64,000 bases of DNA from Desulfuromonadales bacterium (lineage in GTDB: Bacteria; Desulfobacterota; Desulfuromonadia; Desulfuromonadales; BM103), in assembly GCA_027065695.1 (NCBI GenBank), contig JAMONP010000097.1:1-64000 (forward strand), in the 5' to 3' direction. The translations under genes were made by a program, and so were the position numbers. This document shows positions 6,851 through 32,560 of the stretch, piece by piece; the stretch's first letter is position 1, and every line of letters starts with the position of its first letter. The notes under the pieces are model-generated. The model saw only the letters and a program-made list of their open reading frames with translations, was not told the origin of the DNA and did no database searches.

Positions 6851-7667
6851 GGGCCGGCCTGTGTACTGTCGTTCTTCGCCGTTTGCATTATTTCTGACCA
6901 TAAGCTCATGGTTTTTGATTGTAAGCTTACTGGCTTCCTGTGTGCCTGTTCAGCCAAAATTTGTCGGCGAATCGGTAGGCCAGGGTTTTGCCGATGGACT
7001 TATACAGGAATGGTATGAGGCCTCTGTGCAGGTCACTTCCGTGCAAGGCCTGGCCAGGGTCAAGGTACATACCCCTGAAAAGTCACTAAATGGCACCCAG
7101 GTCATCTTGGCTGAAAAACCCAATCGGTTGCGAGCGGAGACTTTAAGCCCTTTTGGTTCGCCTATACTATTGCTGGCTGTAGACGGTAAAAATCTTGGGG
7201 TCTCGCTTCCTTCCCGGAACATCTTCTACACCGGGGAGGCAACAGATGCCAATCTTGGTAGGTTTGTTCAGATCCCCTTGCGACTGACTGACTTGATCAG
7301 CGTTCTGCTTTATCAGCCACCGATGATAGATGTCTTTAGCGAAGAGGCTTTCGCGTTGCAAGAGGGAGGTTGGCTGGTGGTGCGTAAGAGTTCATTGCGT
7401 CGTCAGGAATTGATCTTTAATCAGGTTCGTCAACTTGTCGAAGTGAGTTATTATGATGGTGATAAATTATCCCTGAAAATAAATTACGGAAAATTCACCA
7501 AAGATGGAGGGCGCTTCCCACATCTTTTTGGTATCGAACTCCCCGAGGCAGAAATCACGGCCAGTCTCAAATTTTCAGATTTGGAAACCAATGGCCCATT
7601 ACGTTCCGGGATCTTTGAATTGACACCTCCTAAGGGCGCGACGATTGTTTCTTTAGACGCCGAGTAA
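6840..7667 (+). CDS. LolB/DUF4292-like lipoprotein
   Basis: 275 residues from the ATG at 6840, which overlaps the TPR gene stop at 6848-6850. A hydrophobic signal segment ends in lipobox LLASC. The mature part (VQGLARVKVHTPEKSLNGTQVILAEKPNRLRAETLSP and so on) has the pattern of the LolB/LppX-like beta-barrel-sheet lipoprotein fold assigned to DUF4292: short amphipathic strands and the 'LRAE.L...G.P...' motif. A role in lipoprotein or lipid handling at the outer membrane is inferred from the fold. A longer start at 6774 is possible but would lie within the upstream gene and before the signal. Confidence 0.7.
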   Translation: MRCKGRPVYCRSSPFALFLTISSWFLIVSLLASCVPVQPKFVGESVGQGFADGLIQEWYEASVQVTSVQGLARVKVHTPEKSLNGTQVILAEKPNRLRAETLSPFGSPILLLAVDGKNLGVSLPSRNIFYTGEATDANLGRFVQIPLRLTDLISVLLYQPPMIDVFSEEAFALQEGGWLVVRKSSLRRQELIFNQVRQLVEVSYYDGDKLSLKINYGKFTKDGGRFPHLFGIELPEAEITASLKFSDLETNGPLRSGIFELTPPKGATIVSLDAE

Positions 7668-7722
7668 CTGGACTGTCCCCGCATGAAAACTGTCCCGAGA
7701 GGCTTCATAAAGGAGTGAACTA

Positions 7723-9333
7723 GTGAGATTCATCTTTATTGTCATGTTGTTCTTTTTAGCTGGTTGCGAACAGCAACAGGCAGTTGTCCCGGCAGAGGGC
7801 GACGCGGCGAAACCGATTCATGGCGATACCTTTATTGAGGCGTCAATTGGTGAGCCAAGCAACCTGCTACCGGTGCTTTCATCCGATTCGGCTTCAAGTG
7901 ATATCAATCAGTTAGTATACAACGGGCTAATACGATACGACAAAAACCTGCAACTCGAGGGTGAGCTGGCAGAGTCATGGGAGATCTCCGAGGATAATCT
8001 GTCATTTACCTTTCATCTGCGTAAGGATGTGACCTGGCATGACGGTGCACCATTCACTAGTGCCGATGTCCTCTTCACTTACCAGATGTATATTAACCCG
8101 GAGGTGCCGACCTCATACGCCGAGGCTTTCTTGCAGGTCTCCAAAGCTGAGGCGGTCGATGCCTACACTTTCCGGGTTACCTATGAGAAACCTTACGCGC
8201 CTGCTCTGGAGAGCTGGGGGACACCGATCCACCCCAAACACCTGTTAGAGGGCCAGGACATCACCAAAAGCCCATTGTCAAGAGCTCCGATCGGTACCGG
8301 ATCTTTTAAATTCGTTAAATGGGATGCTGGTGAGAAGATCGAGTTAATTGCCAATCCTGACTACTTTGAAGGCCAACCTTATATTCACCGCGTTGTCTAC
8401 CGGGTGATTCCAGATACTTCAACCCAGTTTCTTGAACTGAGATCCGGTGGCCTCGATCTTATGGGACTAACTCCAATTCAGTACGAAACTCAGACAGACA
8501 CACCTGCATTTAAACGTAAGTTTAATAAATATCGCTACCTGTCGTTCAGCTATACTTATCTTGGTTACAATCTCGCTAAACCACTTTTTCAAGATCTACG
8601 AGTCCGGCAGGCTATTTCCTACGCCATCAACAAGCAGGAACTCATTGATGGTGTTCTTCTGGGCCTCGGCAGTATCGCGACCGGTCCCTACAAGCCGGAT
8701 ACCTGGGTCTACAATGCCAATGTCAAGCGATATGAGTACAACCCAGAGATGTCCCGTTCTCTGCTTGCAAAGGCCGGTTGGGTCGATAGCGATGGTGATG
8801 GTATTCTGGACAAGGATGGCAAAAAACTGGCCTTTACCATTATTACCAACCAGGGCAACGATCTTCGTTCCAAAACTGCTGAAATAATTCAACGGCGTCT
8901 TAAGGAAGTTGGTATTATTGTCGAAATTCGTATCGTAGAATGGGCGACTTTCCTGAAAGAGTTTATCTTTCCCGGCAATTTTGATGCAACCATTCTCGGC
9001 TGGAGTGGCGGACCGGAGCCGGATCAATACAATATCTGGCACTCAAGTAAAACCGCACCACGAGAGTTGAATTTCACCAGGTACAAAAACAAGGAAGTCG
9101 ATGCGCTACTGGAGAAGGGCAGGCGGACCTTTCCCCAGGCTGAGCGCAAGCAGATTTATGATCGTTTCCAGGAAATTCTGGCTGAAGAACAGCCATATAC
9201 TTTCTTGTATGTCGGTGAAGCTTTACCCGCTGTCGCTAAACGTTTCCGTGGCATTGAGCCGTCGCCGGCCGGGATAAAACATAACTTCATCAAGTGGTAT
9301 GTGCCGAAGAGTGAGCAGAAGTATACCCGTTAG
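7723..9333 (+). CDS. Family 5 extracellular solute-binding lipoprotein (peptide ABC transporter)
   Basis: 536 residues starting at GTG 7723 with an AAGGAG ribosome site 7 bp upstream. Lipobox FLAGC follows a short signal. The rest matches SBP_bac_5 (DppA/OppA type): the early 'LNPLLSSDSASSDI..LVYNGLIRYD' equivalent, WHDGAPFTSADVLFTY, IGTGSFKFVKWD and RQAISYAINKQELI. It would bind peptides or similar ligands in the periplasm and pass them to the permease encoded at 9457. A dispersed palindromic repeat lies between the two genes. Confidence 0.92.
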   Translation: MRFIFIVMLFFLAGCEQQQAVVPAEGDAAKPIHGDTFIEASIGEPSNLLPVLSSDSASSDINQLVYNGLIRYDKNLQLEGELAESWEISEDNLSFTFHLRKDVTWHDGAPFTSADVLFTYQMYINPEVPTSYAEAFLQVSKAEAVDAYTFRVTYEKPYAPALESWGTPIHPKHLLEGQDITKSPLSRAPIGTGSFKFVKWDAGEKIELIANPDYFEGQPYIHRVVYRVIPDTSTQFLELRSGGLDLMGLTPIQYETQTDTPAFKRKFNKYRYLSFSYTYLGYNLAKPLFQDLRVRQAISYAINKQELIDGVLLGLGSIATGPYKPDTWVYNANVKRYEYNPEMSRSLLAKAGWVDSDGDGILDKDGKKLAFTIITNQGNDLRSKTAEIIQRRLKEVGIIVEIRIVEWATFLKEFIFPGNFDATILGWSGGPEPDQYNIWHSSKTAPRELNFTRYKNKEVDALLEKGRRTFPQAERKQIYDRFQEILAEEQPYTFLYVGEALPAVAKRFRGIEPSPAGIKHNFIKWYVPKSEQKYTR

Positions 9334-19130: not shown

Positions 19131-19191
19131 GTAAATAGCTGCGGTCTTGATTTTGTTGCGAACGCTGTTAATTTATCTGCCAAGGAATACT

Positions 19192-20220
19192 GTGCCTCGA
19201 TTGATTTTTTTAGCTATTCTTCTGCTCGCCGTGGCAGCCATGAGTTTTACTGGGTGTAGCGATATCCCCACTGATCGCACCTATGCGCTCTGGCTGGATC
19301 ACGCTCCGACAGATGCCGACTGGGACCGGGCTTTGCCGCGAGAAGTTAGTGTCCGTGGCGGTCGTCCCCACAAGTTAAGCAGCTTTACCGATATTGATGA
19401 AGACACGGTCCACACCTCGACCGCTTCATGTCATCATGGTTCGCGTGTGCCGGAACCGGTTCAGGTTGATATCCGTGCTTTTTACACGGATGATGATCTT
19501 TTTCTGCGCTTGAGCTGGGAAGATGCGACACGTGATCAATCTATGCTTGACTGGCTGTTCGATGGTGAACAGTGGCAGAATACAGGTCAGATTGAAGACG
19601 GTTTCGGTTTACTGTGGGATGCGAAAGGGCAGTTTAATGATTTTTCCTGTTCTTACGCTTGCCACATCAATAAATTTGGCGTGAATCAGAATAGCTTTCG
19701 TGCTTCCAACAAGATGCGCATGGTCCAGGAGAAAGCCTGGCTGGATCTCTGGAACTGGAAAGCTGCACGTACTGCCAAGCTTGGGTTTGCCGATGATCGC
19801 TACCTGGATTCCAAAGGTATGCACGGCGATACTCCTGGCGAATTGTTCACTGAGAATTCCAAAGCTTATTTAAATAACCAGGATAATGTCAAACCTTTCA
19901 GCGCCGAAGACATGCCGATTTACGATGCAGAGCGACTGCCAGCAGACGAAGGTTCCCGTCCTCCAGGAAGCGTGGCCCCTGGCTATCTGGTTAAGCGACC
20001 GGTTGCTGGCCGGGCTGATGTTAGCGCTGTGTCTCGTTATGAACAGGGCCGCTGGATTGTTACGCTTCAGCGTGCTTTACAGACCGGAGATCCTTATGAT
20101 GTGGTTTTTGTCCCGGGAGACGAGATGGGGGTTGCTTTTGGGCTGGCGCTGATGGACCATTCTCTGTATGAGCATTATGCTTCGAATACTGTTGAACGAC
20201 TGGTGTTGTTGAAGCGATGA
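19192..20220 (+). CDS. Lipoprotein with ethylbenzene-dehydrogenase-like haem-binding domain
   Basis: 342 residues from GTG 19192 with AAGGA 6 bp upstream; the signal LIFLAILLLAVAAMSFTGC ends in a lipobox. The body (PEPVQVDIRAFYTDDDLFLRLSWEDATRD, DGFGLLWDAKG, later 'GVAFGLALMDHSLYEHYASN') follows the pattern of EB_dh/cytochrome c-552-DMSO-reductase-like beta-sandwich domains that bind haem b. It carries CSYACH, a CX3CH variant of the c-type haem motif, plus an earlier SCHHG. Whether haem is covalent is not clear. First gene of the sigma-54 cluster, so likely an envelope electron carrier. Confidence 0.7.
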   Translation: MPRLIFLAILLLAVAAMSFTGCSDIPTDRTYALWLDHAPTDADWDRALPREVSVRGGRPHKLSSFTDIDEDTVHTSTASCHHGSRVPEPVQVDIRAFYTDDDLFLRLSWEDATRDQSMLDWLFDGEQWQNTGQIEDGFGLLWDAKGQFNDFSCSYACHINKFGVNQNSFRASNKMRMVQEKAWLDLWNWKAARTAKLGFADDRYLDSKGMHGDTPGELFTENSKAYLNNQDNVKPFSAEDMPIYDAERLPADEGSRPPGSVAPGYLVKRPVAGRADVSAVSRYEQGRWIVTLQRALQTGDPYDVVFVPGDEMGVAFGLALMDHSLYEHYASNTVERLVLLKR

Positions 20221-20230
20221 GGGTGAGCGG

Positions 20231-20280
20231 TGAGGAGTGAGGAGTGAGGAGTGAGGAGTGAGGAGTGAGGAGTGAGGAGT
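20231..20280. repeat. Tandem 7-bp repeat (TGAGGAG x7)
   Basis: Seven perfect copies of TGAGGAG plus one extra T fill nearly the whole gap between two lipoprotein genes. Each unit contains a GAGGAG-like Shine-Dalgarno core, although the real ribosome site for the next gene is the AAGGAG at about 20289-20294. Confidence 0.95.
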
Positions 20281-20302
20281 GCAGGGTAAAAGGAGAATCT
20301 CT

Positions 20303-21058
20303 TTGAAGAAACTGAATCTGGTCTGTTTGTTGGTGTTGTTTATAGCGATGACCTTTCTTGCTGGATGTGGTGATGATGAGGCTGCTTCGATGAAGACATC
20401 GTCCGGACATAGCCGTCTGCAAGGACAGGTAACCATGCCCTTGGAAGGTGTGCACCTCTATGTCTACAAGCCTGGTATGGACCTTTATGGTCCTGCTTTT
20501 GCAATTTCAACTGCTACGGGCATTGACGGCAAGTTTGCCCTCGAGCTTCCTGATGGTGATTATGTTGCAGTGGCCAGGAAGCGTGCTGGAGGTGAAGAGA
20601 CCGGGCCGGTGGTTGCCGGTGACAACCGCAGTGAGTTCATAAAAGTTAGTGTGCAGGGTGGCGTTGTCGATATGCCGGTTTCGGCGCCGGTGAAGATCGG
20701 TGACCAGCGAAACTTTACCGGCGATATAGAAACTTCAAAAACCGGTCTTGCTGGCCAGATTCTGGATAGTGATGGTCAGCCTGTGGCAAACGCCAGGGTA
20801 CACGTCTATGATCATGTACAGATGTCTGAACGGCCAAAATTTGTATCTGAAAAGACTGGTCCTGACGGACGCTACCTGATTTATCTGCCTGACGGTGGTA
20901 CCTACTATCTGGCCGCTCGCGATAAATTCGGAGGGCCGCCAAAACTGGGTGATCTCTATGGACGCTACGATAAAGGTACAATTGAGCCCTCTGCCGTTGT
21001 GGTCAAAGAAGGGCAAATTCTGAAACAGGTTGTTATCACCGTGACCAAGGTCTGGTAA
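20303..21058 (+). CDS. Lipoprotein with carboxypeptidase-regulatory-like domains
   Basis: 251 residues from TTG 20303, preceded by AAGGAG; the reading frame is open further upstream only through the tandem repeat. Lipobox FLAGC. Two beta-sandwich repeats of the CarboxypepD_reg type are visible: LQGQVTMPLEGVHLYVYKP...GIDGKFALELPDGDYVAVARKR and LAGQILDSDGQPVANARVHVYDH...GPDGRYLIYLPDGGTYYLAARD. Such domains are structural or ligand-binding in the periplasm. Three bases separate it from the HEAT lipoprotein gene. Confidence 0.82.
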   Translation: MKKLNLVCLLVLFIAMTFLAGCGDDEAASMKTSSGHSRLQGQVTMPLEGVHLYVYKPGMDLYGPAFAISTATGIDGKFALELPDGDYVAVARKRAGGEETGPVVAGDNRSEFIKVSVQGGVVDMPVSAPVKIGDQRNFTGDIETSKTGLAGQILDSDGQPVANARVHVYDHVQMSERPKFVSEKTGPDGRYLIYLPDGGTYYLAARDKFGGPPKLGDLYGRYDKGTIEPSAVVVKEGQILKQVVITVTKVW

Positions 21059-21060
21059 GT

Positions 21061-21960
21061 ATGTTGCGTTATTTCTTTGCTGGTCTTTGCTTTTTTATGT
21101 TGTCAGCTTGCACCGCAGACCCGGTTCTAGACCTGAATCAACTTGAAGCCAACGCCCGTGGTGGCGACCAGCAGGCTATTGTCCAGCTTGTCGATTTGTT
21201 GTCTGCCCGGGAGCCTGGCCTTGCTGACCGCATTTACGCAATAACAATTGAGATTGGCGAAAAAGCTGTTCCGGTTTTGCTGGATAAGGTCCATTCAAAA
21301 GACAAGCAGTTACGCGAATATGCAATAGCCGCGTTGGGAACACTCAAAGTTGTTGATGCCATCCCTGCAATCAGCGATGTGCTATCTCAGAAGGCTTTGG
21401 AAAGACGATATGTTGCTGCCTGGGCACTCGGTGAGATCGGCAGTGAGGCCGTGGTTCCGGTGCTGATCAATGTCCTGGATGATGACAACAGCGAAGTTCG
21501 TCGTTATGCTACGCGTGCGCTGATCAAGCTGAACAAAACCGCAGTCATGCCATTAGTAGAATATCTCGCCAAGGCAAGTGGTGAAGGAGCGGCCGGAGCT
21601 ATTCGTGCGGTGGGTGATATTACTGACAAGCGGGCTCTGCAGGTGCTGCTGGCTCAGTCACAGGGCGAGCAGCGTGCCGAGGCGTTTCTGGCGTTGGGAA
21701 AGTTACGTGATCCTAGCGCCGAAGCTGCATTAGTTGCCGGTCTGCAAGATCCTGATTCGCTGGTGCGTATGAATGCCGCCATGGCCCTCGGTCGCCTGGG
21801 TGGCCCGGTCGCCGCAGAAGCTCTAACAAAAACACTTGAGGACGATGTTCATGTAGTGCGTGAATGGTCCGCACGTTCTCTCGAAATGATTACCGGAAAA
21901 CCGGTTTTGTATCGTAACAGTCACGATGAATATGTGCGGCCGTATCGGGTTTATCATTAA
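21061..21960 (+). CDS. HEAT-repeat lipoprotein
   Basis: 299 residues, signal with lipobox MLSAC, then about seven HEAT repeats (KDKQLREYAIAALGTLKVVDAIPAI, ERRYVAAWALGEIGSEAVVPVL, DNSEVRRYATRALIKL and others). A helical solenoid of this type is a protein-docking surface. It ends without a linker to an enzyme domain. The next gene is 192 bp away across a copy of the dispersed palindromic repeat, so an operon is likely but not certain. Confidence 0.88.
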   Translation: MLRYFFAGLCFFMLSACTADPVLDLNQLEANARGGDQQAIVQLVDLLSAREPGLADRIYAITIEIGEKAVPVLLDKVHSKDKQLREYAIAALGTLKVVDAIPAISDVLSQKALERRYVAAWALGEIGSEAVVPVLINVLDDDNSEVRRYATRALIKLNKTAVMPLVEYLAKASGEGAAGAIRAVGDITDKRALQVLLAQSQGEQRAEAFLALGKLRDPSAEAALVAGLQDPDSLVRMNAAMALGRLGGPVAAEALTKTLEDDVHVVREWSARSLEMITGKPVLYRNSHDEYVRPYRVYH

Positions 21961-21965
21961 AACAG

Positions 21966-22146
21966 GTACGCGGGACGCGGGACGAGGAACGAGAAAACCT
22001 TAAAGGCAGGAACGAGGGGCGCGGAACGAGAAAACCATGAAAACCATGAAAACCATAAAGACAATGAAAATAGAGTGCTTTTTTTGCTTTTTCGCGTCCC
22101 TCGTCCCGCGTCCCTCGTTCCAGGTTTTTCGCCCCGCGTCCCGGGT
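21966..22146. repeat. Dispersed palindromic repeat, copy 2
   Basis: Long copy: left arm of several GGGACGCGG/GACGAGGAACG blocks, an A-rich centre with short ACCATGAAA iterations (about 22036-22060), and a right arm of CGCGTCCCTCGTCCCGCG blocks. It ends 6 bp before the polyferredoxin start codon and would form a long imperfect hairpin in the mRNA. Confidence 0.85.
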
Positions 22147-22152
22147 TGTTAT

Positions 22153-23682
22153 ATGTTGAAAAATGTTCTCAATATACCATTTCTAGGGGCGATCATTCGT
22201 TCCCCCTGGACCTGGCGGTTACTGCGGCTGGCGATGCTGGGATTGCTTCTGGTCATGATCGCTTATGGCTGGCACCAGCATGCTATTCCCGGAGTGGATG
22301 TCCGTGATCCTCTGATGTACACGAACTTTACTACCTTCAACCTCTGGGTCTTCTGGATGATGGGTATGGTCGTCGTTGCTCTGTTCCTGGGTCGCTCCTG
22401 GTGTACCGTCTGCCCGGTCGGTTGGCTCAACGGTCTGCTCAGTCGCTTTGGTCTGCGCCGCGAGATGCCGTCATGGCTGGCGAATTTCGTTCCTGTCACT
22501 CTGGTGCTGGTGGTGTTGCAACTGCTGGTTTATTTCCTCTCCATCCATCGCTACCCGGATTACACTGCTGTTTTGCTCGCCTGGATGGTGATTCTGGCCA
22601 TTGTTGCTGGTTTAATTTTCCGGCGGCGCTCATTCTGTTTGCTGCTCTGCCCGGCGGGTGCCGTGTTCAGCCTCTATGCCCGCCTGGCTCCCTGGCAATT
22701 GCGGGTCAGGGAACAGGATGTTTGTGCTGGTTGTCAGGACAAACCGTGCATCTCGACAGATCTGGTTTGGAAAGAAGCGTCACTTGATGGGCTGAGTCTT
22801 AACTGGCGGACACGGTCAGAAGGCTGTCCGGTTGCCCTGGTGCCAGCAGAAATCAATGATAGTGCCGAATGCACCCTCTGCCTGAACTGTGTTCAGAACT
22901 GCTGCAACGATAATGTCACACTCGGTTTTCGCGGCTGGCCCGCAGATTTGCGTCAAGGTGGGTTACGTCCCGGTGAAACACTTTTTTTCCTGGTTCTGCT
23001 GGGCATGTTGACTGCCAACTTTGCCAAAGTATATGTAGACTTGCGCGAAGCGATCTTCTGGTTGCCGCAGAACCTGGCCTTGTCGCTCGGCTGGGACACT
23101 GCCGGGTTCTATCCCCTGGCGATGGTCTGGATCGGACTCATCTTCCCGCTGCTGTTACTTGTGCCGGGCTTACTTATATACTTGGTTGGCCAGATTAAGG
23201 TTTCAACTCTGGACAGTGAACCTTGCTGTGTAGGAAATGACACTGCAGGAAAAGACGCTGCTGCGGCATACTCATTTTCAGGATTTATGTCGTTGCTTGG
23301 ACGTTTAGCTCTGCCGTTGTTACCATTGGTTCTTACAGCCCATCTGATCCTTGCGGTCGTGAAATTGAATGCCAAGTTTGCTTATTTGCCGCTGGCACTT
23401 CAAGATCCCTCCGGGGTGAAGAGCTATCTGGCAATCAACGTCATGCAGACATTATCACCTCCTGGTGTTATCGTTTCTCTGGATATTCTTAAATGGGCGA
23501 TCGTTGTCTTGTTGGTGGTCGGATTTTTCCTGTCAGCTTTTGCCGCCTGGACTGTTGCGAAGACTGAAAATAAAGGACAGCAGACAATTGATCGACCATT
23601 TTTTGTCGCGGTCCTGGTGACTCTGGTCATCCTCTCCGGTTTTTATGGCTCTACGGTGATCGAATGGCTATTCGTTCGTTAG
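22153..23682 (+). CDS. NapH/NosR-type membrane polyferredoxin
   Basis: 509 residues from the ATG at 22153; an open frame to 22075 is encoded by the repeat and discounted. At least six membrane helices. Two CX2-3CP signatures sit after helices (CTVCPVGW and CLLLCPAGAVF), as in NapH/NosR/CcoG proteins, followed by cytoplasmic or periplasmic Cys sets CAGCQDKPC, EGCP and CTLCLNCVQNCC, enough for two 4Fe-4S clusters. The likely role is passing electrons across the membrane from the quinone or cytoplasmic side to an envelope partner. Overlaps the next gene by 19 bp. Confidence 0.88.
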   Translation: MLKNVLNIPFLGAIIRSPWTWRLLRLAMLGLLLVMIAYGWHQHAIPGVDVRDPLMYTNFTTFNLWVFWMMGMVVVALFLGRSWCTVCPVGWLNGLLSRFGLRREMPSWLANFVPVTLVLVVLQLLVYFLSIHRYPDYTAVLLAWMVILAIVAGLIFRRRSFCLLLCPAGAVFSLYARLAPWQLRVREQDVCAGCQDKPCISTDLVWKEASLDGLSLNWRTRSEGCPVALVPAEINDSAECTLCLNCVQNCCNDNVTLGFRGWPADLRQGGLRPGETLFFLVLLGMLTANFAKVYVDLREAIFWLPQNLALSLGWDTAGFYPLAMVWIGLIFPLLLLVPGLLIYLVGQIKVSTLDSEPCCVGNDTAGKDAAAAYSFSGFMSLLGRLALPLLPLVLTAHLILAVVKLNAKFAYLPLALQDPSGVKSYLAINVMQTLSPPGVIVSLDILKWAIVVLLVVGFFLSAFAAWTVAKTENKGQQTIDRPFFVAVLVTLVILSGFYGSTVIEWLFVR

Positions 23683-24143
23683 TCTTGCTGATTTTACTGG
23701 TCACGCTGGTCTCTGCGCCGGTGCAGGCCTGTTTTGGCCCGAAACTCTTTGTTGCGGTCGGCAAGCAGACGCAGGATGAAGTCATGTTTGCCCTGATCAC
23801 GCTCTATGTCCATGAAAAAACCGGAGTTGAAAGCACGCGTGTAGAGACCAGCAAGGATCAGAAGCTGATCGAGCTTTTGTCGGACGATAAAGCCGACCTG
23901 GTTCTGGTGCCGCTAGGTAAAGGGCTCGACAATGTCATTTTTTTTGTTGATGGTCTGTCGCTGCTGGTGACCGGTAAACGGCCTCAGCAGAACCTGCAAT
24001 TTACCACGGTTATACCGGCTATAAGGAAACTCAGTAAGCTGCTTGAATATGAAGCCGTTATGCTTTTAGTCAGTCGGGTTGATGCCGGACAAAGTCCCAT
24101 GGCTGTTGCCAGGAAATTCCTCATGGAAAATCGATGGATATGA
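23664..24143 (+). CDS. Small exported protein of unknown family
   Basis: 159 residues with a clear signal peptide (LVLLILLVTLVSAPVQA, cleavage before CFGPK). The mature protein starts with CFGPKLFVAVGKQTQDEVMFALITLYVHEKTGVES, followed by a Rossmann-like alternation of strands and helices that recalls one lobe of a glycine-betaine or molybdate-type binding protein (DKADLVLVPLGKGLD). The N-terminal Cys could be a lipidation or metal site, but the signal is not a good lipobox. Overlaps the polyferredoxin by 19 bp and the first beta-helix gene by 10 bp, so it is firmly part of the module. Function not known. Confidence 0.7.
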   Translation: MAIRSLVLLILLVTLVSAPVQACFGPKLFVAVGKQTQDEVMFALITLYVHEKTGVESTRVETSKDQKLIELLSDDKADLVLVPLGKGLDNVIFFVDGLSLLVTGKRPQQNLQFTTVIPAIRKLSKLLEYEAVMLLVSRVDAGQSPMAVARKFLMENRWI

Positions 24144-24949
24144 AAGTAAATTACCGAAAAATAATGGCTTTCATGGTGGCCACAGGTGTTGCCTTAATCT
24201 CTCTTGTATCATCGTTACAGGCAGCAGATGATCTACCTGATTATCAGGGTACGTATTCAGGAGATCTTGTCTGGCAAGGAACCGTAACCATGGCAGGCGA
24301 TGTCCTGATTATGCCGGGTGGCACCCTGACAATTCGCGCCGGAACACAAATTAATGTGATTCCTGCGCAAGGCACAAAGATTGCCCCGGACTACCTTTCA
24401 GCACTGACCGAGCTATTGATTCGCGGCAAACTTGATATTCAGGGGACAGCGCAAGCGCCGGTTCGATTCGTGATTGTAGAGACTGAGGAAACGGAAGAGA
24501 TTGCCTGGTCCGGCATTACTCTTGATAGGGCTGAAGAGAGTCTTATCCAGAACACAGAACTTGAGCGTGCCGATATGGCTATTAGATGCGTAGGTTCTTC
24601 GCCAGTAATCAAAGGTAACCGTATCCTTAAGAGTCGTTATGGCATTGTTGCCCAACAACAGAGTCATCCAAAAATTCTTGAAAACATAATTATGGATGGG
24701 GAAGGGGGCATTTTCTGCTGGCGTGGTTCCAACCCCTATCTGCTGGATAACCAGATTACCGGTCACGATGAAGAGGCGGTGTTTGTTGATAGCAGCAGTC
24801 GCCCCTGGCTGGATCGTAACCTGATAAGTGGCAATAGTATCGGCTTGGCACTTTATCCTCGCGACCTGCCTTTTGATTCGGTGTTGGTGACAGGCAATAC
24901 TGAAAATCTCCGCTGGCTTGGTCGTCAGGGACAGGCAGGTGATCAATGA
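24134..24949 (+). CDS. NosD-like right-handed beta-helix protein (first)
   Basis: 271 residues, signal peptide about 1-30 (MAFMVATGVALISLVSSLQA). Pectate-lyase-like turns: GTYSGDLVWQGTVTMAGDVLIMPGGTLTIRAGTQINV, then IKGNRILKSRYGIVAQQQSHPKILENII and NQITGHDEEAVFVD. NosD proteins with this fold help mature copper sites of N2O reductase; here no nosZ is seen. Overlaps the next beta-helix gene by 4 bp (ATGA), so the two helices probably act as a pair. Confidence 0.82.
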   Translation: MDMKVNYRKIMAFMVATGVALISLVSSLQAADDLPDYQGTYSGDLVWQGTVTMAGDVLIMPGGTLTIRAGTQINVIPAQGTKIAPDYLSALTELLIRGKLDIQGTAQAPVRFVIVETEETEEIAWSGITLDRAEESLIQNTELERADMAIRCVGSSPVIKGNRILKSRYGIVAQQQSHPKILENIIMDGEGGIFCWRGSNPYLLDNQITGHDEEAVFVDSSSRPWLDRNLISGNSIGLALYPRDLPFDSVLVTGNTENLRWLGRQGQAGDQ

Positions 24950-26091
24950 TGCGTTGTTGCTGTCTTGTGCTACTCATAATATTCTTTGCACCGCTGTCAT
25001 CATTGGCTGGTGAGACTAAGGTCTATCCCCGTGAGGTACAAATCTACCCCCGTGAGGTACAAATCTACCGAGGAGAACAGACCCTTTTTGAGGATACGGT
25101 CTGGAGCGGCGAGATTCTTATAGACGGAATATTGACGGTGGCTGCCGGAGTGACGCTGGAAATCCGACCAGGCAGCCGGGTGAGCTTCACCCGTTTTGAC
25201 AGCAACGGTGATGGTATCGGTGAACATGAAATCTTCACCCAGGGAACGCTTCGTGTCCTCGGCACAGAGGAAGAACCGGTACTTTTTACCTCCGCAGAAG
25301 AGATTCCCCGTCCCGGTGACTGGGGGACGATCAACATGATGGTGAGCGAAACAGAAAACCTTCTGCAATATTCTATCGTCGAATATGGCTACCGTGGTTT
25401 TCACGCTCACTTCTCTCGGGCCAGGCTGCAAAACAGTACTTTCAGAAACAATATGCGTGGCGCACAATTCCAGGAATCACAAGTAGTTATTGATGGTTGT
25501 CGCTTTCTTGATAATAACAACGGCGTGCAGTTCCGCGACAGTAAAGTCACCTTGAGTGGTTCCTTTATTTCCGGCAACCAATGGGGCCTACGCTGTGTCT
25601 ACAGTGATCTGATAATGACCGACAATGTGATTGAAAACAACCTGGTCAATGGTGTGAACATCCGTGACGGTAAGATCAATGCGCAAGGCAACCGAATTGT
25701 CAATAACCGTCGCGGGCTTTACTTGCAACGTAGTGAAGGGCGGGTTGTTGGCAACGATTTGTCCGGCAACAGCGAGCATGGCATTTTTCTTGAAGACTCG
25801 AATGTTGAGGTCGTTGACAACCGCCTCGCTGAAAATGGCCGTGCTGGTGTGCGCTGGTTGAACAGTAAGGGACGTCTGGCGCGCAACCTGATCGCTGATA
25901 ACGGCGTCTACGGGCTCATCAACGATGGTACAACTGCTGTTTCTGCCCGCAATAACTGGTGGGGGACTATTGACCCCGCCGATATCGTTGCAGCCATCCG
26001 TGACGGTCGGAATCGACCCGGGTTGGGGCTGGTTGATAACCGTTATGCTTTGATGCAGCCATTGCCTTTTGATTTGTTGGGGACGCCATGA
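24946..26091 (+). CDS. NosD-like right-handed beta-helix protein (second)
   Basis: 381 residues, signal peptide about 1-21. The solenoid is very regular (SKVTLSGSFISGNQWGLRC, SDLIMTDNVIENNLVNGV, DGKINAQGNRIVNNRRGL, and so on), with a closing ARNNWWG motif typical of NosD/pectate-lyase-like proteins. Just after the signal, YPREVQI is encoded twice in a row by a perfect 21-bp duplication (25024-25044 and 25045-25065). Likely periplasmic; overlaps both neighbours by 4 bp. Confidence 0.84.
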   Translation: MMRCCCLVLLIIFFAPLSSLAGETKVYPREVQIYPREVQIYRGEQTLFEDTVWSGEILIDGILTVAAGVTLEIRPGSRVSFTRFDSNGDGIGEHEIFTQGTLRVLGTEEEPVLFTSAEEIPRPGDWGTINMMVSETENLLQYSIVEYGYRGFHAHFSRARLQNSTFRNNMRGAQFQESQVVIDGCRFLDNNNGVQFRDSKVTLSGSFISGNQWGLRCVYSDLIMTDNVIENNLVNGVNIRDGKINAQGNRIVNNRRGLYLQRSEGRVVGNDLSGNSEHGIFLEDSNVEVVDNRLAENGRAGVRWLNSKGRLARNLIADNGVYGLINDGTTAVSARNNWWGTIDPADIVAAIRDGRNRPGLGLVDNRYALMQPLPFDLLGTP

Positions 26092-26987
26092 AGTATTTGC
26101 TTCTTATGCTGACTTTCCTCCTTACCGGTGCTGTTCTAAGTGGTTGCGAACAACCCCTTGAAGGTCCGCCGATTCGGATCGGCTATATGAATTGCAACAG
26201 CGTTAAGGAAACTATGGAGCGCTTCCAGCCGCTGACTGCCTATCTGCAACAACAGCTTGGTCGACCTGTTGAGGCTATTCCGGTAGACACGCAGGATCTG
26301 GAATCACGCTTTGCCGCCGGTGAGTTTGACTTTGTTCATGGCAATAGTCTTCTCTACGTCATCTTGAAAGAGAATCATGACCTGCAGCTGGTTGCGACAG
26401 AGAAGCGCGGGCAGTTCGGTTCTCGCACCGCTGGTGCCATAATAGTCCGTCGCGACAGTCCTATAAAGTCGCTCAAGGATTTAAAAGGCAAGCGCATGAT
26501 CTTCGGCCCGCAATTGGCACCGTCTGGCTATATGGCCCAGTACGATTTGATGCTGCAGGCAGGCTTCGACCCTGATCGTGAACTGGATTACTACGCTCTT
26601 CCACGGGGCACCTTCAAGCATGAAAAGGTTATATACGGTGTTTACTTCGGTGCATTTGATGCTGCGGCTGCGCCAGCACTGGATCTTGAGATTATGACGC
26701 GTGAAGGCAAGATCAGCGCCGATGATTTTCGGGTGTTGGCACAGAGTGAAACAATTCCATACTGTACTTTTGGTGCATCAAAAAATGTGGATTCAAAGTT
26801 AACGGAGAAATTCCGTAAAGCCTTACTGGATTTGACTCCTGAGACTACTGTGGAGGTTGATGGCCAAAGGCTCAAGGTGCTCGATGCAGCCTGGATCGAT
26901 GGTTTCGAGACGCTGCTGGATAAAGATTACGACCCCATCAGGGTTATGGCGAAACGCGTCAATATGCCGCCATACCAGGAGTTCTGA
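26088..26987 (+). CDS. PhnD-like substrate-binding lipoprotein
   Basis: 299 residues, lipobox VLSGC. The body (IRIGYMNCNSVKETMERFQPLTAYLQQQLGRPVEAIPV, FAAGEFDFVHGNSLLYVILKE, LKGKRMIFGPQLAPSGYMAQYDLML, GVYFGAFDAAAAPAL) matches the PhnD/phosphite-type periplasmic binding fold used by ABC transporters and by some sensor systems. No ABC permease or ATPase is in the cluster, so it may deliver a ligand to another envelope protein rather than feed a classic importer. Overlaps the previous gene by 4 bp. Confidence 0.84.
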   Translation: MKYLLLMLTFLLTGAVLSGCEQPLEGPPIRIGYMNCNSVKETMERFQPLTAYLQQQLGRPVEAIPVDTQDLESRFAAGEFDFVHGNSLLYVILKENHDLQLVATEKRGQFGSRTAGAIIVRRDSPIKSLKDLKGKRMIFGPQLAPSGYMAQYDLMLQAGFDPDRELDYYALPRGTFKHEKVIYGVYFGAFDAAAAPALDLEIMTREGKISADDFRVLAQSETIPYCTFGASKNVDSKLTEKFRKALLDLTPETTVEVDGQRLKVLDAAWIDGFETLLDKDYDPIRVMAKRVNMPPYQEF

Positions 26988-26991
26988 GCTG

Positions 26992-27534
26992 ATGCTGCGC
27001 GATCGATTCGATCAATTGATGATGGCCTCTCTGGTGGTTGTGCTGCTTTTTATGGTCGTGGTCATGGTTGGTGCTGGCCCGGATGAATACAATCGTGAGA
27101 ACTCCGCCATCAGCCGGCACCTGGAGCGTGAAAGGCTTTACAAGGCCCGTGTGGCCTTTATTGAGCGGCACTTCAGTCCGGTGATTGCTCTGCGTGACAG
27201 CGGTGCGTTGCCGGAAGCTTTGCTTAAACTGGAGGAATTACAACGAACCCTTCCTGGTGAAGCTCATATTGACTTACTGAGTGGTGATATCCTGTTGCGT
27301 ATGGGGCAGTTTGATCGTGCCCTGACAAAGCTTGCTGCGGCAGTGAGAAGAAACGCGGATTACGTGGATGCTGCCAGCCCCCTCAGTCAGAGGCCTCTAC
27401 TTGAATCTGCTGTCACGGAGGGCTTACCTCTGGTTCGTGATCGTCTGCGCTCTCAGCCTGATAGCCGATCTGTGGCACAGGTAGTGAAAGATGGATACTA
27501 CCTGCAAAGTCGTCTTGCCGGAGGCTGCGAATGA
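26992..27534 (+). CDS. Membrane-anchored TPR-like protein
   Basis: 180 residues from the ATG at 26992 (AGGAG upstream). One N-terminal membrane helix (MASLVVVLLFMVVVMVGAG) and then helical repeats (ALLKLEELQRTLPGEAHIDLLSGDILLRMGQFDRALTKLAAAVRRN), consistent with one or two TPR units. The protein ends in GGCE. It overlaps the transporter gene by 4 bp (ATGA). Probably a periplasmic docking protein of the cluster. Confidence 0.7.
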   Translation: MLRDRFDQLMMASLVVVLLFMVVVMVGAGPDEYNRENSAISRHLERERLYKARVAFIERHFSPVIALRDSGALPEALLKLEELQRTLPGEAHIDLLSGDILLRMGQFDRALTKLAAAVRRNADYVDAASPLSQRPLLESAVTEGLPLVRDRLRSQPDSRSVAQVVKDGYYLQSRLAGGCE

Positions 27535-28601
27535 GCTCGTCATTGCATGACCGCCATTTCTGGATTGTTATTGCTGCTGGTACCGGGCTCGGCATCTTGG
27601 GAGTTCTCCTGGCTGTGTGGGGCAATCCACTGAACAGCGGTATCTGCGTCTCCTGTTTTATCGAAAATTCATCTGGAGCACTTGGTCTACACAATAACGC
27701 GCGGATGCAATACCTGCGGCCGGAACTGATCGGCTTTGTCCTCGGTTCGGTTGTTTGTGCATCGATGTTTAGGGAATTCCGTTCGCGAGGAGGGAGTGCG
27801 CCGTTGGTACGCCTGGTGTCCGGTATCTTTCTGATCGTCGGCAGCGCCGTCTTCATTGGTTGTCCGATCAAGCTTTTTCTCAGGTTCACCGCTGGTGACT
27901 TGACCTCCATAGCTGGGATCTTTGGCTTGATTGCCGGGGTATGGGTGGGATTGCAAGGACTCTCACGTGGGATCGACTTGGGCCGAGCTAAAGATGAACG
28001 CGGCGCTGCCGGTCTGCTGATACCTGCTGGTTTTGTTTTGCTACTCATCTTTCTGTTGGCACGTCCGGCATTTATAATCTTCTCGGAACGTGGCAGCGCA
28101 GCGCAACATGCACCCCTGGCGGTTTCACTCCTGGTGGGTTTGCTGCTAGGTGCGCTTGCCCAGCGCAGCCGTTTCTGCATAACCGGCAGTGTCCGCGACA
28201 GCTTATTGATGGGCAGTCGCAGCCCACTTTTCTGGGGATTCATTGCTTTTCTTGTCAGCGCTTTCGGGACCAACCTGGCGGTGGGCCGTTTCTCCTTTGG
28301 CCTCTATGGACAACCGGGTGCGCACCTTGAATATCTCTGGAGTTTTTTCGGTATGCTGTTGGTCGGCTGGTTGTCTGTACTGATCGGCGGTTGCCCCTTC
28401 CGGCAACTGATCAAAGCCGGGGAGGGTGATACCGACGCAGGCCTGGCCGTGGTCGGTATGTTGCTCGGTGGTGGTTTGGTTCAGTCCTGGGGGATTGCGG
28501 CAACGGCTGCCGGTGTTTCTCTGACCGGTAAAGTGTCTGTGCTGGTTGGGCTGGCTTTTGTCCTGCTGCTCAGTCTGCTTTTTCGCGATCGAACTGCTTA
28601 A
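27531..28601 (+). CDS. YedE/YeeE-family sulfur- or selenium-compound transporter
   Basis: 356 residues, about nine to ten membrane helices in two similar halves. Conserved Cys positions of the family are present: GICVSC early, FIGCPIK, RSRFCITGS and IGGCPFRQL. YeeE imports thiosulfate; YedE proteins are proposed selenium transporters because they neighbour selenium genes. Here the gene is followed by a peptide-modification locus and a cysteine desulfurase, so sulfur or selenium supply for that pathway is the most economical idea; the substrate is inferred. Confidence 0.88.
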   Translation: MSSSLHDRHFWIVIAAGTGLGILGVLLAVWGNPLNSGICVSCFIENSSGALGLHNNARMQYLRPELIGFVLGSVVCASMFREFRSRGGSAPLVRLVSGIFLIVGSAVFIGCPIKLFLRFTAGDLTSIAGIFGLIAGVWVGLQGLSRGIDLGRAKDERGAAGLLIPAGFVLLLIFLLARPAFIIFSERGSAAQHAPLAVSLLVGLLLGALAQRSRFCITGSVRDSLLMGSRSPLFWGFIAFLVSAFGTNLAVGRFSFGLYGQPGAHLEYLWSFFGMLLVGWLSVLIGGCPFRQLIKAGEGDTDAGLAVVGMLLGGGLVQSWGIAATAAGVSLTGKVSVLVGLAFVLLLSLLFRDRTA

Positions 28602-28779: not shown

Positions 28780-29094
28780 GTGAATAAACCCTTACGTAAT
28801 CCGGAGATCGTCTGGCGGGTCGAAAAGCGTCGTCAGGCGGAGGTCCTGAAAGCCCTGGAAACAGGCGAGGATGTTGCAGACACTGGCACGGTAATTCTTC
28901 TGCTGTCAGGTATGATGCATCAACTCAACCTGATTGGCGGTATGATCTGGGAGCAATGTGACGGACAGAAAACTCTTGCAGATATTGCCGGAGAACTGGC
29001 AAAGGAATTCTCTGTGGAACAGGCAGAAGTCGAGTCTGATGTTGCCGAGTTTGTCGCTGATCTGGCAGAGAGAGGCTGGTTGATTAATGAGTGA
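28780..29094 (+). CDS. PqqD-like peptide chaperone of a GeoRSP-type system
   Basis: 104 residues from GTG 28780, which has AAAGGA about 8 bp upstream; upstream codons to 28726 look non-coding. Features: PEIVWRVEKRRQAEVLKALE, then the PqqD core LLLSGMMHQLNLIGGMIWEQCDGQKTLADIAGELAKEFSVEQAEVESDVAEFVADLAERGWL. PqqD proteins or domains bind the leader of a precursor peptide and present it to a radical SAM enzyme. The order PqqD, radical SAM/SPASM, SPASM-only is the composition I recall for the Geobacter GeoRSP genome property. Overlaps the radical SAM gene by 8 bp. Confidence 0.85.
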   Translation: MNKPLRNPEIVWRVEKRRQAEVLKALETGEDVADTGTVILLLSGMMHQLNLIGGMIWEQCDGQKTLADIAGELAKEFSVEQAEVESDVAEFVADLAERGWLINE

Positions 29095-30088
29095 AGTAAC
29101 GGAAATGTTCTCTGCGCCGTTGACCTTTAACTGGACGCTCTCTTATCGTTGTAACTTTACCTGCGATCATTGTTATAGCCGTGACGAAGAGTGCCCGGAA
29201 CTGATAACAGATGATCTCAAAAGGATCGTCGATATTCTGGTTGAACAGCAAGTGCCCTTTATCAATTTCGGTGGTGGTGAACCGCTAATCTGCAAAGATC
29301 TTTACGAAATCGCTGAATATGCCTCGAAGTCCGGACTGAATGTTTCAATGAATAGCAACGGCTGGCTGCTTGATGAGGCCGCTGCCCAGCGGCTCAAGGA
29401 TGTAGGTTTTAAAAGTGTCGGTATCAGCATCGACAGTTTTGAGCCGTCTCTTCATGATGGTTTCCGTAATATGCCAGGATCATTCGAACGAGCGGTGCAC
29501 GGGCTTGATGCTCTGCACAAGGTTGGCCTGAAGAGTACCATGAGCTCTGTTATCTCGCGCATCAATTACCAGGCCTTTCGAGAACTGCTCGATCTGGCTC
29601 GTGATCACGGTGTCGGTCAGGTGTACCTGCACAATTTTAAATGCAGCGGTCGTGGTTTTAAGAATCGTGAAGATCTCGATCTTACCCCTGAAGAGTGGCA
29701 AGCTTTCTATCTTGAAGCTCTTGCTGTCAAACACCAGACCAAAGATCTGAAGATCTCTTTTGACGATCCGGTGATTGCCTCACTACCAGAATACCAGGAA
29801 AAAACCATGGTCAAGGGCAGCAGTTGCGGTAAACTTTCGCTGCATTTGCAGCCGAATGGCGACATTACCCCATGTGGTTTCATTCCTGTCGTGGTAGGTA
29901 ACATCCTGAACGATGATTTCGAATCGATCTGGTTTGATTCGCCGGTTCTCAAGGCGATGCGCAGTAAGGAAGCCACCGGCAAATGCTCCGGTTGTGCAGC
30001 TTTTGACGACTGTCAGGGGGGATGTACTGCGCGTGCTTTTGCGACGACGGGTGATTTTAATCAGCCTGATCCGCATTGTTGGAAATAA
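29087..30088 (+). CDS. Radical SAM/SPASM peptide-modifying enzyme (GeoRSP type)
   Basis: 333 residues. CNFTCDHC (residues 22-29) is the CX3CX2C site for the SAM-binding 4Fe-4S cluster; FGGGEPL is the following SAM-binding GGE-type motif. The C-terminal SPASM domain has Cys at SSCGK, ITPCGF, GKCSGCAAFDDCQGGC and PHCW, enough for auxiliary Fe-S clusters. Enzymes of this build install thioether, C-C or other crosslinks, or epimerise residues, in short peptides. The adjacent PqqD-like gene and an 18-residue peptide gene support a RiPP role. The exact chemistry is not readable from sequence. Confidence 0.93.
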   Translation: MSEVTEMFSAPLTFNWTLSYRCNFTCDHCYSRDEECPELITDDLKRIVDILVEQQVPFINFGGGEPLICKDLYEIAEYASKSGLNVSMNSNGWLLDEAAAQRLKDVGFKSVGISIDSFEPSLHDGFRNMPGSFERAVHGLDALHKVGLKSTMSSVISRINYQAFRELLDLARDHGVGQVYLHNFKCSGRGFKNREDLDLTPEEWQAFYLEALAVKHQTKDLKISFDDPVIASLPEYQEKTMVKGSSCGKLSLHLQPNGDITPCGFIPVVVGNILNDDFESIWFDSPVLKAMRSKEATGKCSGCAAFDDCQGGCTARAFATTGDFNQPDPHCWK

Positions 30089-30290: not shown

Positions 30291-30347
30291 ATGAAAAAAT
30301 ACATCAAACCGCGTATCGTTGGTTCCAGTAACGTCCACCCTTGCTAA
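30291..30347 (+). CDS. Putative RiPP precursor peptide, 18 residues
   Basis: ATG at 30291 to TAA at 30345-30347 encodes MKKYIKPRIVGSSNVHPC. It lies between the radical SAM/SPASM and SPASM-only genes, exactly where a substrate would be expected. It is too short for routine gene callers. A basic, hydrophobic front (KKYIKPRIVG) could be the recognition part and SSNVHPC, ending in a free C-terminal Cys, the modified part; this split is a guess. The ribosome site is weak (AAGAAAGAAG, about 8 bp upstream). Composition and codon choice look like real coding sequence and not repeat. No homology search was possible. Confidence 0.7.
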   Translation: MKKYIKPRIVGSSNVHPC

Positions 30348-30371
30348 GGCTAGCTACCTCACGGTAGTGCC
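30348..30371 (+). other. Hairpin directly after the peptide gene
   Basis: Starting at the base after the stop codon, GGC-tag-CTACC-tcac-GGTAG-t-GCC can fold into a 5-bp stem extended by 3 bp, followed by only CTTTAT. It is too weak for a firm terminator but could protect the short message end or limit read-through into the SPASM gene, so that more peptide than enzyme is made. Confidence 0.4.
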
Positions 30372-30390
30372 TTTATGGTGTCACCCTGAT

Positions 30391-31353
30391 ATGGGTCTCG
30401 ATCTCTTAGATACCCCGGTTCGCTTGACCTGGGATTTTCCTGCCATTGTGAGTGGGGACAGGGCGACCGGACAGTCGGGCGTCAGTTTGCCCGCCATTGC
30501 CAACAGTATTATTGATGGCGGCGTGTTCTTCGTCACCTTGCAAAATGACCCTCTACTGCATCCAGCTGTGGGGGCGGTGCTGAATATCCTGGCGGGTGGT
30601 TGTCAACTCATTATCAACTGTCGCGGCAGTTCTGATGAACTGGCACGGCTCTCACAGCTACCTCAGGCAGGATGTCAGCTACTGCTGGACACTTCAGGTT
30701 TTATTGATGTCAAGCAGAAGCTTGACAGTGACAAGCTTAAGACTACTGTCCAGGCTCTCCGCCGACTGGAATACGAGCCAGTTATCAGCTTGATGCCATT
30801 ACAGGATAATCTCTGCAATATTCCTGATTTACTGCGCTTTTGCAGAGCGCATCAGATCTCTAAATTTAAGTTGCCAAACGCCCATATCGGTGATAGCGTC
30901 CACACTTATTCAACAGATGATTTGCCTCGTTGGCAGAACCTTGACAGCTTTCGGAAAAGCTGGCTGGAATTTGTCAAAGAACCCTGTAAACTACCGGCTA
31001 TGGAAATCCATGACCTCTTCCTCTGGGAGATTATGACTCCAGGCCAACAACAGAATCGCAGTGAATATGGCGGTTGCCAGGCAGGGAATAGTCTCGGCCA
31101 CATTGATGGTCGGGGCGTTGTTCATCCCTGCGCTGCATGGCCGCAGCCACTTGGCAAATTGCCTGATCAGTCATTGGAAGATGTCTGGGCAGGACGTGAG
31201 CGACTGGCTGTGCGTGAGCATGTAGCTCAGACTCCAGGTGGTTGCCTTGGTTGTCGTGACATCGATATCTGTTTCGGCGGTTGCCGAGGCCTGGCTTTTC
31301 AATTGAACCGGTCTGAAAAAGAGCGAGATCTCATGTGCTCCGGACCGCGTTGA
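30391..31353 (+). CDS. SPASM-domain protein lacking the radical SAM cysteines (GeoRSP partner)
   Basis: 320 residues from the ATG at 30391; a GTG at 30367 is an alternative. The N-terminal two thirds look like a degenerate radical SAM barrel (PVRLTWDFPAIVSG, VFFVTLQNDPLLHPAVGAVLNIL, ISLMPLQDNLCNIPDLLRF), but the CX3CX2C motif is absent, so it should not cleave SAM. The C-terminus is a complete SPASM domain: YGGCQAGN, GVVHPCAAW, GGCLGCRDIDICFGGCRG and LMCSG. Such a protein probably forms a complex with the active enzyme and supplies auxiliary clusters or substrate binding. Confidence 0.87.
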   Translation: MGLDLLDTPVRLTWDFPAIVSGDRATGQSGVSLPAIANSIIDGGVFFVTLQNDPLLHPAVGAVLNILAGGCQLIINCRGSSDELARLSQLPQAGCQLLLDTSGFIDVKQKLDSDKLKTTVQALRRLEYEPVISLMPLQDNLCNIPDLLRFCRAHQISKFKLPNAHIGDSVHTYSTDDLPRWQNLDSFRKSWLEFVKEPCKLPAMEIHDLFLWEIMTPGQQQNRSEYGGCQAGNSLGHIDGRGVVHPCAAWPQPLGKLPDQSLEDVWAGRERLAVREHVAQTPGGCLGCRDIDICFGGCRGLAFQLNRSEKERDLMCSGPR

Positions 31354-31411: not shown

Positions 31412-32560
31412 ATGCCTATCTATCTTGACAACGCTGCCACATCTTTTCCCAAGCCATCCCAGGTTACCGAGGCGGTTGAAAGAACTTTACGGCTGAATGC
31501 TGCTAACCCCGGCCGTGGTGGACATCAACTTTCACTTGAAGCCGGTCGACTGGTCATGGAGTGCCGGGAGACCGTAGCCCGATTCTTCGGCATCGGCGAT
31601 GAGACCCGCATTGCATTCACTGCCAACGCAACCGAGGCTATTAATCTTGGCTTGTTCGGTGTCTTGCAACCCGGTGACCGGGTTGTCACTACATCGATGG
31701 AGCATAACGCGGTGATCCGTCCGCTACGGGCATTAACTCAACAGGGTGTTGATGTTGTCCGTGTCATGGCCGATTCTTTTGGCTTTGTTGATCCTGCTGC
31801 GATTCAGCAGGCCTGTCTTTCCGGGACACGCCTGTTGATTGTGAACCATTGTTCCAATGTGACCGGCACTCTTCAGGCGATCGAAGAAATTGGCCCCTGG
31901 TGTCGTAAGCAGGGGATCATTTTTATGGTTGACGCCGCACAAAGCGCAGGCATCTTCCCAATCGATGTTGAAGAAATGGCGATTGACCTGCTGGCGGTCC
32001 CCGGTCACAAATCACTTCTTGGCCCACCAGGGACAGGTTTTCTCTACGTTCGCCAGGGGTTGAACCTGCGGCCTCTGCTTTATGGCGGGACTGGTAACTT
32101 CTCTCAGTCAGAATCACAACCACTTGAGATGCCGGAACGCCTGGAAAGTGGGACCCTCAACACGATAGGCCTGGCTGGACTCAAGGCAGGGATTGAGTTT
32201 CTTGAAGCCATTGGCCTGGATCATGTCCAAGCCCACGATCAGGAACTTCTAGGTCAGTTGATCGATGGCTTGAGCAGCCTTGAAGGTGTTACTCTCTATG
32301 GACCTCTTGGTTCTGAATGGCATGGCGGGGCTATTTCGTTCAATATCAAAAATATTGATGCGGCAATGCTGGGGTTCCGCTTGGACCGCGAATATGGTAT
32401 CTGTTGCCGTGTCGGGCTGCACTGCGCTCCGGTAGCACATGACACTATAGGGACGCTCCCTGAAGGGACCGTCCGTCTCAGCCCTGGATATTTCAATACG
32501 ACTGATGATATCGAACAGACGCTGACGGCACTTCGTACGATCATTGCGACGGAAAGCTGA
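31412..32560 (+). CDS. Cysteine desulfurase-like class V aminotransferase
   Basis: 382 residues. YLDNAATSFPKP at the N-terminus and PLP-lysine motif VPGHKSLLGPPGTGFLYV (Lys about 199) mark the branch of NifS/SufS-like proteins often called the EF2568 family; RVGLHCAPVAHDTIGT carries the catalytic-loop Cys. The enzyme would release sulfur (or selenium from selenocysteine) as a persulfide. Relatives often neighbour selenium genes. It starts 58 bp after the SPASM gene and follows a YedE transporter, so it may feed the peptide pathway or Fe-S assembly of its enzymes. Confidence 0.88.
   Translation: MPIYLDNAATSFPKPSQVTEAVERTLRLNAANPGRGGHQLSLEAGRLVMECRETVARFFGIGDETRIAFTANATEAINLGLFGVLQPGDRVVTTSMEHNAVIRPLRALTQQGVDVVRVMADSFGFVDPAAIQQACLSGTRLLIVNHCSNVTGTLQAIEEIGPWCRKQGIIFMVDAAQSAGIFPIDVEEMAIDLLAVPGHKSLLGPPGTGFLYVRQGLNLRPLLYGGTGNFSQSESQPLEMPERLESGTLNTIGLAGLKAGIEFLEAIGLDHVQAHDQELLGQLIDGLSSLEGVTLYGPLGSEWHGGAISFNIKNIDAAMLGFRLDREYGICCRVGLHCAPVAHDTIGTLPEGTVRLSPGYFNTTDDIEQTLTALRTIIATES

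Follow-up and report, generated by a model that had tools for sequence, protein, structure and literature searches.

Mycofactocin (MftA, the PqqD-like MftB and the radical SAM/SPASM protein MftC) and PQQ (PqqA, PqqD and PqqE) are the closest described relatives of the system analyzed here. The mycofactocin system was discovered by the same logic as is used below, and the PqqA proteins have a mean length of 23 residues (PMC3023750). For GeoRSP (TIGR04302, TIGR04303 and TIGR04304), the enzymes are known from curated models and no model for a substrate is present in the libraries searched; the probable peptide substrate is now named, and the identification of the peptide and of its dispersed copies is new to this analysis. 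Our literature search, in which few subscription journals or preprints were covered, found no paper naming GeoRSP, its models or the peptide (only the mycofactocin paper PMC3023750 was relevant), and an earlier description of the peptide may exist elsewhere. Judged from comparisons of sequence, the peptide appears to be an unusually short RiPP- or cofactor-type precursor whose scattered copies are associated with cytochrome genes.

The peptide gene and its neighbors

The window (the entire 64,000-nucleotide stretch of Desulfuromonadales DNA analyzed) contains an 18-codon open reading frame that begins with the ATG at 30,291, ends with the TAA at 30,345–30,347 and encodes MKKYIKPRIVGSSNVHPC. 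The start codon lies 202 bases 3' of the radical SAM stop codon, and 43 bases separate the peptide stop from the SPASM gene when ATG 30,391 is taken as the start of the latter. A sequence-only reading of the window had picked out this frame as a peptide gene lying between the radical SAM and SPASM genes, an assignment borne out by retention of the frame in other loci. A degenerate form of the peptide pattern matched once in the window and not at all in 100 shuffles, and searches of Pfam and NCBIfam gave no model matching the peptide. The ribosome-binding site of the window copy is weak (AAGAAAGAAG) and most of its relatives have better sites. The hairpin that follows the window copy is also weaker than those found 3' of the peptide in many relatives, and a strict terminator scan downstream of this copy found none. 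The genome to which the window belongs has five peptide copies.

Table 1 Features in and around the GeoRSP genes of the window
Feature	Coordinates	Strand	Evidence
NosD-like right-handed beta-helix secreted protein	24946..26091	+	Beta_helix 2.2e-19, NosD 3.4e-15
PhnD-like periplasmic binding lipoprotein	26088..26987	+	Pfam Phosphonate-bd 4.4e-56; 47/80 loci
YedE-family sulfur/selenium transporter	27531..28601	+	TIGR04112 412.7 bits; near enzyme in 61/80 loci
PqqD-like peptide chaperone (RRE)	28780..29094	+	TIGR04302 89.8 bits (cut-off 100), TIGR03859 59 bits (cut-off 46), Pfam PqqD 3.6e-18, solved PqqD 3g2b
GeoRSP radical SAM/SPASM enzyme, CNFTCDHC plus full SPASM cysteine set	29087..30088	+	TIGR04303 445.8 bits (cut-off 400)
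Peptide gene MKKYIKPRIVGSSNVHPC, proposed GeoRSP precursor	30291..30347	+	Frame kept in relatives, pN/pS 0.15, co-occurrence with radical SAM gene
Hairpin followed by TTTAT; weak, terminator-like	30347..30377	+	Fold -12 to -14 kcal/mol
SPASM-domain partner, radical SAM-like fold lacking CxxxCxxC (pseudo-enzyme or adaptor)	30391..31353	+	TIGR04304 110.1 bits (cut-off 300), best-matching family
Cysteine desulfurase family protein (TIGR01977)	31412..32560	+	462.4 bits (cut-off 377); 30/80 loci, window's own order only

The enzymes encoded in the window are GeoRSP members or close relatives of them. The radical SAM gene passes the TIGR04303 cut-off, and TIGR04302 is the best-matching family of the PqqD-like protein, which scores below the cut-off of that model (Table 1). 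In the radical SAM enzyme the CxxxCxxC motif and the SPASM cysteines are invariant across seven diverse members. Next in score after TIGR04303 came the models of AhbD (heme b synthase), of NirJ and of the mycofactocin maturase, and relatives with solved structures include PqqE. Several of these proteins (AhbD, NirJ, the mycofactocin maturase and PqqE) catalyze decarboxylation or oxidation. The structural model of the SPASM partner (pLDDT 88.6) gave SuiB and PqqE as the best PDB folds and, as the protein lacks CxxxCxxC despite its confidently predicted radical SAM fold, it is probably an adaptor or an electron-transfer partner. This partner contains the sequence GVVHPC, the likeness of which to the NVHPC end of the peptide had been remarked upon earlier as perhaps due to chance. 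Chance is indeed the better account and a meaningful likeness (the motif as a substrate mimic) was rejected: the motif is the canonical SPASM G-x4-C cysteine and across loci its His is replaced by Tyr, Trp, Phe or Thr.

Upstream of the GeoRSP genes is a long run of redox-type genes (19,147–28,601) encoding a possible heme lipoprotein, HEAT repeats, a ferredoxin membrane protein that is NapH-like by inspection, NosD-like beta helices, the PhnD-like lipoprotein and YedE. Parts of a run of this type also adjoin the peptide and FG-GAP genes at two other loci (L076 and L077). The YedE-family and PhnD-like genes remain close to the enzyme gene in Geobacteraceae too, despite a different gene order there. 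The YedE transporter, the PhnD-like protein and the cysteine desulfurase give a hint of a selenium or sulfur link, and the neighboring genes in general are a hint of redox and sulfur or selenium chemistry outside the cytoplasm, without identifying the product.

Coding evidence and co-occurrence with the radical SAM enzyme

Across many genera the sequence of the frame, its position, its ribosome-binding site and its stop codon are kept. Identity among copies is about 79% within the 57 bases and 26% (the chance level) a few dozen bases to either side, such that conservation ends at the frame boundaries. The mean pairwise differences among the operon copies were about 8.4 at codon position 3, compared with 1.8 at position 1 and 1.6 at position 2. 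Thus, third positions no more variable than the others, the finding that the sequence-only reading had named as fatal to its proposal, were not what we observed. The pN/pS ratio among copies is 0.15, the changes being mostly synonymous. The codon for Ser12 is TCN in all 47 operon copies and AGY in all 82 copies located away from the operon (remote copies). As these codon families are not joined by a single synonymous step, the operon and remote groups look like old paralogues, each of which has been held to the same residue. The stop codon interchanges among TAA, TAG and TGA in both classes of copy, and for this reason a selenocysteine peptide, in which TGA would be read through after the last Cys, was discarded (the stop codon in the window is TAA). 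Note that the search pattern fixes M, Y, K, P, V/I, H, P and C plus the stop, and hence conservation was also judged on residues outside the pattern: K2, K3, V9, V10, G11, S12, S13 and N14 show little variation even though the pattern leaves them free. Matches of at least four bases to a ribosome-binding site were found 5' of 98% of the copies versus about 40% of shuffled contexts. These comparisons show that the frame of 18 codons is a genuine gene and that selection acts on its protein.

It is scarcely credible that the 57-base repeated unit is instead a DNA or RNA element such as a binding site or a repeat. Several near-identical copies per genome would suit such an element, but the concentration of variation at third codon positions, the low pN/pS, the use of both Ser codon families, the interchange of stop codons and the retention of the start codon and ribosome-binding site would not. 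A regulatory leader or attenuator peptide might be suspected from the terminator-like structures downstream of many copies (33 of the 47 operon copies and 59 of the 82 remote copies, with 2 in the shuffles of each set). That role is very improbable, given that the remote copies close their transcripts, with the next gene often on the opposite strand, and that it is the amino acids that are kept, with free synonymous change, rather than codon choice or RNA structure. Moreover, no known riboswitch was found in ten of these loci: Rfam gave only RNase P, 6S and a group II intron, and a riboswitch or leader-RNA link was rejected. The near-invariance of the sequence from genus to genus also makes a toxin-type bacteriocin unlikely.

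In the window's order the radical SAM gene is present in 51 of 136 genomes, and in nearly all loci of the Desulfuromonadales type the same 18-residue frame is found 3' of the enzyme stop codon, down to about 57% enzyme identity. Comparison of related GeoRSP loci for a short frame ending in HPC had been suggested in the sequence-only reading, and a frame ending in VHPC is what these loci retain. The peptide was detected in 57 genomes of the order, comprising all 51 of the enzyme-positive genomes and 6 of the 85 enzyme-negative genomes (Fisher p = 4e-31). The six peptide-only genomes, which gave no enzyme match at the cut-off, are assemblies of 70–91% completeness, and in one of them (L110) the peptide is immediately preceded by a truncated radical SAM frame. 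The reversed peptide pattern gave no match in any genome.

One scan of named genomes found GeoRSP enzymes in Desulfuromonadales, Geobacteraceae, Nitrospirae, Deferrisomatales and one Desantisbacteria genome. Loci of the Desulfuromonadales type have the peptide next to the enzyme, as do a few distant loci (MKKVRYIKPSITGQSSVHPC, MKKIPYVKPRIAGTSSVHPC), and in most others it is encoded elsewhere in the genome, away from the enzyme. Of 32 further genomes with the enzyme, drawn from Nitrospirota, Deferrisomatales, Geobacteraceae and other groups, 26 matched the pattern KPx(V/I/A/T)xGxxxVHPC, with no control matches; a few Nitrospirota or Desantisbacteria genomes having the enzyme gave no copy by the patterns used. 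In Geobacterales, where 35 of 141 genomes have the enzyme, a strict core pattern matched 17 of the 35 versus only 1 of the 106 others (p = 2e-11). Relaxed patterns added 16 genomes, and 33 of the 35 then had a form of 17–20 residues. In the Geobacterales variants the K before the proline is replaced by T, P, R, A or S (TP, PP, RP and AP forms, e.g., MKKSYVTPKIVGSAVVHPC), and each variant peptide is lysine-rich at its start and mostly has a strong ribosome-binding site. Two Geobacterales genomes with a strong TIGR04303 match (G597 and G639) gave no peptide copy by the patterns used and may have a diverged precursor. With few exceptions the common core is P-x-(V/I)-(V/T/I)-G-S-(S/A/G)-x-(V/I)-H-P-C-stop. 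The peptides of two Nitrospirae genomes (L245 and L246) are variants that carry an additional Cys (KPKVVGSVCVHPC, KPKVTGAVCVHPC) and would be useful for mapping of the modification site. A plasmid search with a 20-residue form of the peptide gave no match.

The precursor role that the sequence-only reading had proposed is therefore strengthened by co-occurrence and by operon position, in that a short ribosomal peptide is encoded with, and co-occurs with, modifying enzymes. Because the co-occurrence is near perfect and the gene lies within the operon, the peptide is very likely the radical SAM substrate. The combined claim that the frame is a real gene and a GeoRSP substrate is one we hold with high confidence, although the GeoRSP enzyme could have other substrates in addition to the peptide.

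Peptide copies outside the operon

Most peptide copies in the window's order are found outside the operon (82 distinct remote copies), and those located beside cytochrome genes did not figure in the sequence-only reading. A gene with at least three heme-binding motifs (up to 87 CxxCH) lies no more than 500 bases ahead of 39 of the remote copies, and 8 more are behind truncated genes that share the cytochrome C-terminus, giving a total of 47 of 82 behind multiheme cytochromes. As a base rate, among 633 frames surrounding the enzymes 3 were multiheme genes, and among the 52 in the window there were none; even at a 5% base rate the binomial p value for 47 of 82 is 2e-39. The other remote copies are behind a secreted FG-GAP/UnbV_ASPIC protein (14 of 82), an HD-domain gene (6 of 82) or other genes (14), and 1 is at a contig end. 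The 14 in the miscellaneous group follow no recognizable redox gene; about half of them lie ahead of a gene for a secreted protein of some 343 residues and several of those loci have, further on, a ResB-like cytochrome c biogenesis gene (named by inspection rather than from a model). Placement behind cytochromes recurs in Geobacterales and Nitrospirota (at least 18 of 49 copies in one set, using 1.5-kb flanks, and at least 7 of 26 in another), these counts being lower bounds because the flanks are short.

The secreted FG-GAP/UnbV_ASPIC (CRTAC-like) protein, of about 480–530 residues, is the second common gene directly 5' of the peptide (loci L079, at about 7000–8300, L080, L071, L096, L076 and L077). 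In the window's genus the copies behind an HD-domain gene (L073, L095, L098, L099, L100 and L103) have no obvious redox link, and at L073 the membrane protein encoded downstream of the peptide resembles the Bax-inhibitor family.

A cytochrome tail of the form WNx(V/L)TPW was found by hand count in 29 of the 57 peptide-bearing genomes versus none of the 79 others (p = 4e-14), a correlation possibly inflated, and a test weaker than it looks, as large cytochromes may be scarce in genomes that lack the system. The tail is also present on cytochromes that lack an adjoining peptide gene. It is possible that this motif is a sorting or peptide-docking tail. The giant cytochromes of Geobacteraceae end in W-N-x-K-(T/S)-P-W (the WNx(V/L)TPW form is seen at loci L071–L090 and other remote-copy loci).

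With most copies behind cytochrome or FG-GAP genes, and a terminal His and Cys that could bind heme or metal, the peptide might act as a non-modified cytochrome partner or subunit (e.g., an axial-ligand or assembly peptide), its place in the operon reflecting only co-regulation. We consider this improbable in view of the strict co-occurrence with the radical SAM gene and the location between the enzyme and its SPASM partner; the presence of a PqqD-type peptide chaperone also argues for modification. We favor a peptide that is modified by the radical SAM enzyme, and regard a link of the peptide to cytochrome function as evenly balanced. Through the dispersed copies, a radical SAM peptide pathway becomes linked to giant extracellular cytochromes, which suggests an unrecognized part of the extracellular electron transfer machinery in metal-reducing bacteria.

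Proposed maturation and comparison with known systems

In the scheme we propose, the peptide would be a near-leaderless RiPP-type precursor. The PqqD-like protein would hold the N-terminal MKKYxKPxVV, and the radical SAM/SPASM enzyme, helped by the pseudo-radical-SAM SPASM partner, would modify the invariant C-terminal GSxxVHPC. The enzyme relatives, the fold of the partner and the PqqD match lead us to propose the first ten residues as the leader and VHPC as the likely site of modification. By analogy with mycofactocin MftC and with PqqE, the chemistry would most likely be oxidative decarboxylation, or cross-linking through the terminal Cys, the His or both. MftC decarboxylates the terminal Tyr of its precursor, and decarboxylation of the terminal Cys by the GeoRSP enzyme would be one option. 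The product may be a peptide-derived redox or metal-binding cofactor, or a small structural part, with the exported multiheme cytochromes and FG-GAP proteins that adjoin the further peptide copies as its clients. In its fullest form, which we put forward tentatively and with slightly less than even confidence, the proposal is that GeoRSP converts precursors of 17–20 residues into a peptide-derived redox cofactor, or a covalently modified mini-subunit, of a new class, which is built into the giant extracellular multiheme cytochromes with a WNxxTPW-type tail of Desulfuromonadota and Nitrospirota. The peptide is among the shortest of proposed radical SAM substrates and limits the length of leader that a PqqD-type protein would need. 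At only 17–20 residues it can be synthesized and tested directly.

The system resembles PQQ in its short precursor, its PqqD chaperone (the PqqD-like protein passes the TIGR03859 cut-off) and its SPASM radical SAM enzyme. However, the peptide lacks the Glu/Tyr core of PqqA, having no Glu, and the enzyme scores only 118.1 bits with the PqqE model TIGR02109 versus a cut-off of 381. With mycofactocin it shares a precursor that is very short and extremely well conserved at its C-terminus, a PqqD-type chaperone, a related radical SAM/SPASM enzyme and the absence of a hypervariable toxin-like core. In contrast to MftA, the core of which ends in GVY, the GeoRSP peptide ends in VHPC, and the radical SAM enzyme belongs to TIGR04303 rather than to TIGR03962, with which it scores 185.8 bits (cut-off 265). 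GeoRSP also has the additional pseudo-radical-SAM SPASM protein. Finally, whereas mycofactocin has nicotinoprotein partners, the GeoRSP peptide copies are many and are dispersed beside cytochrome genes.
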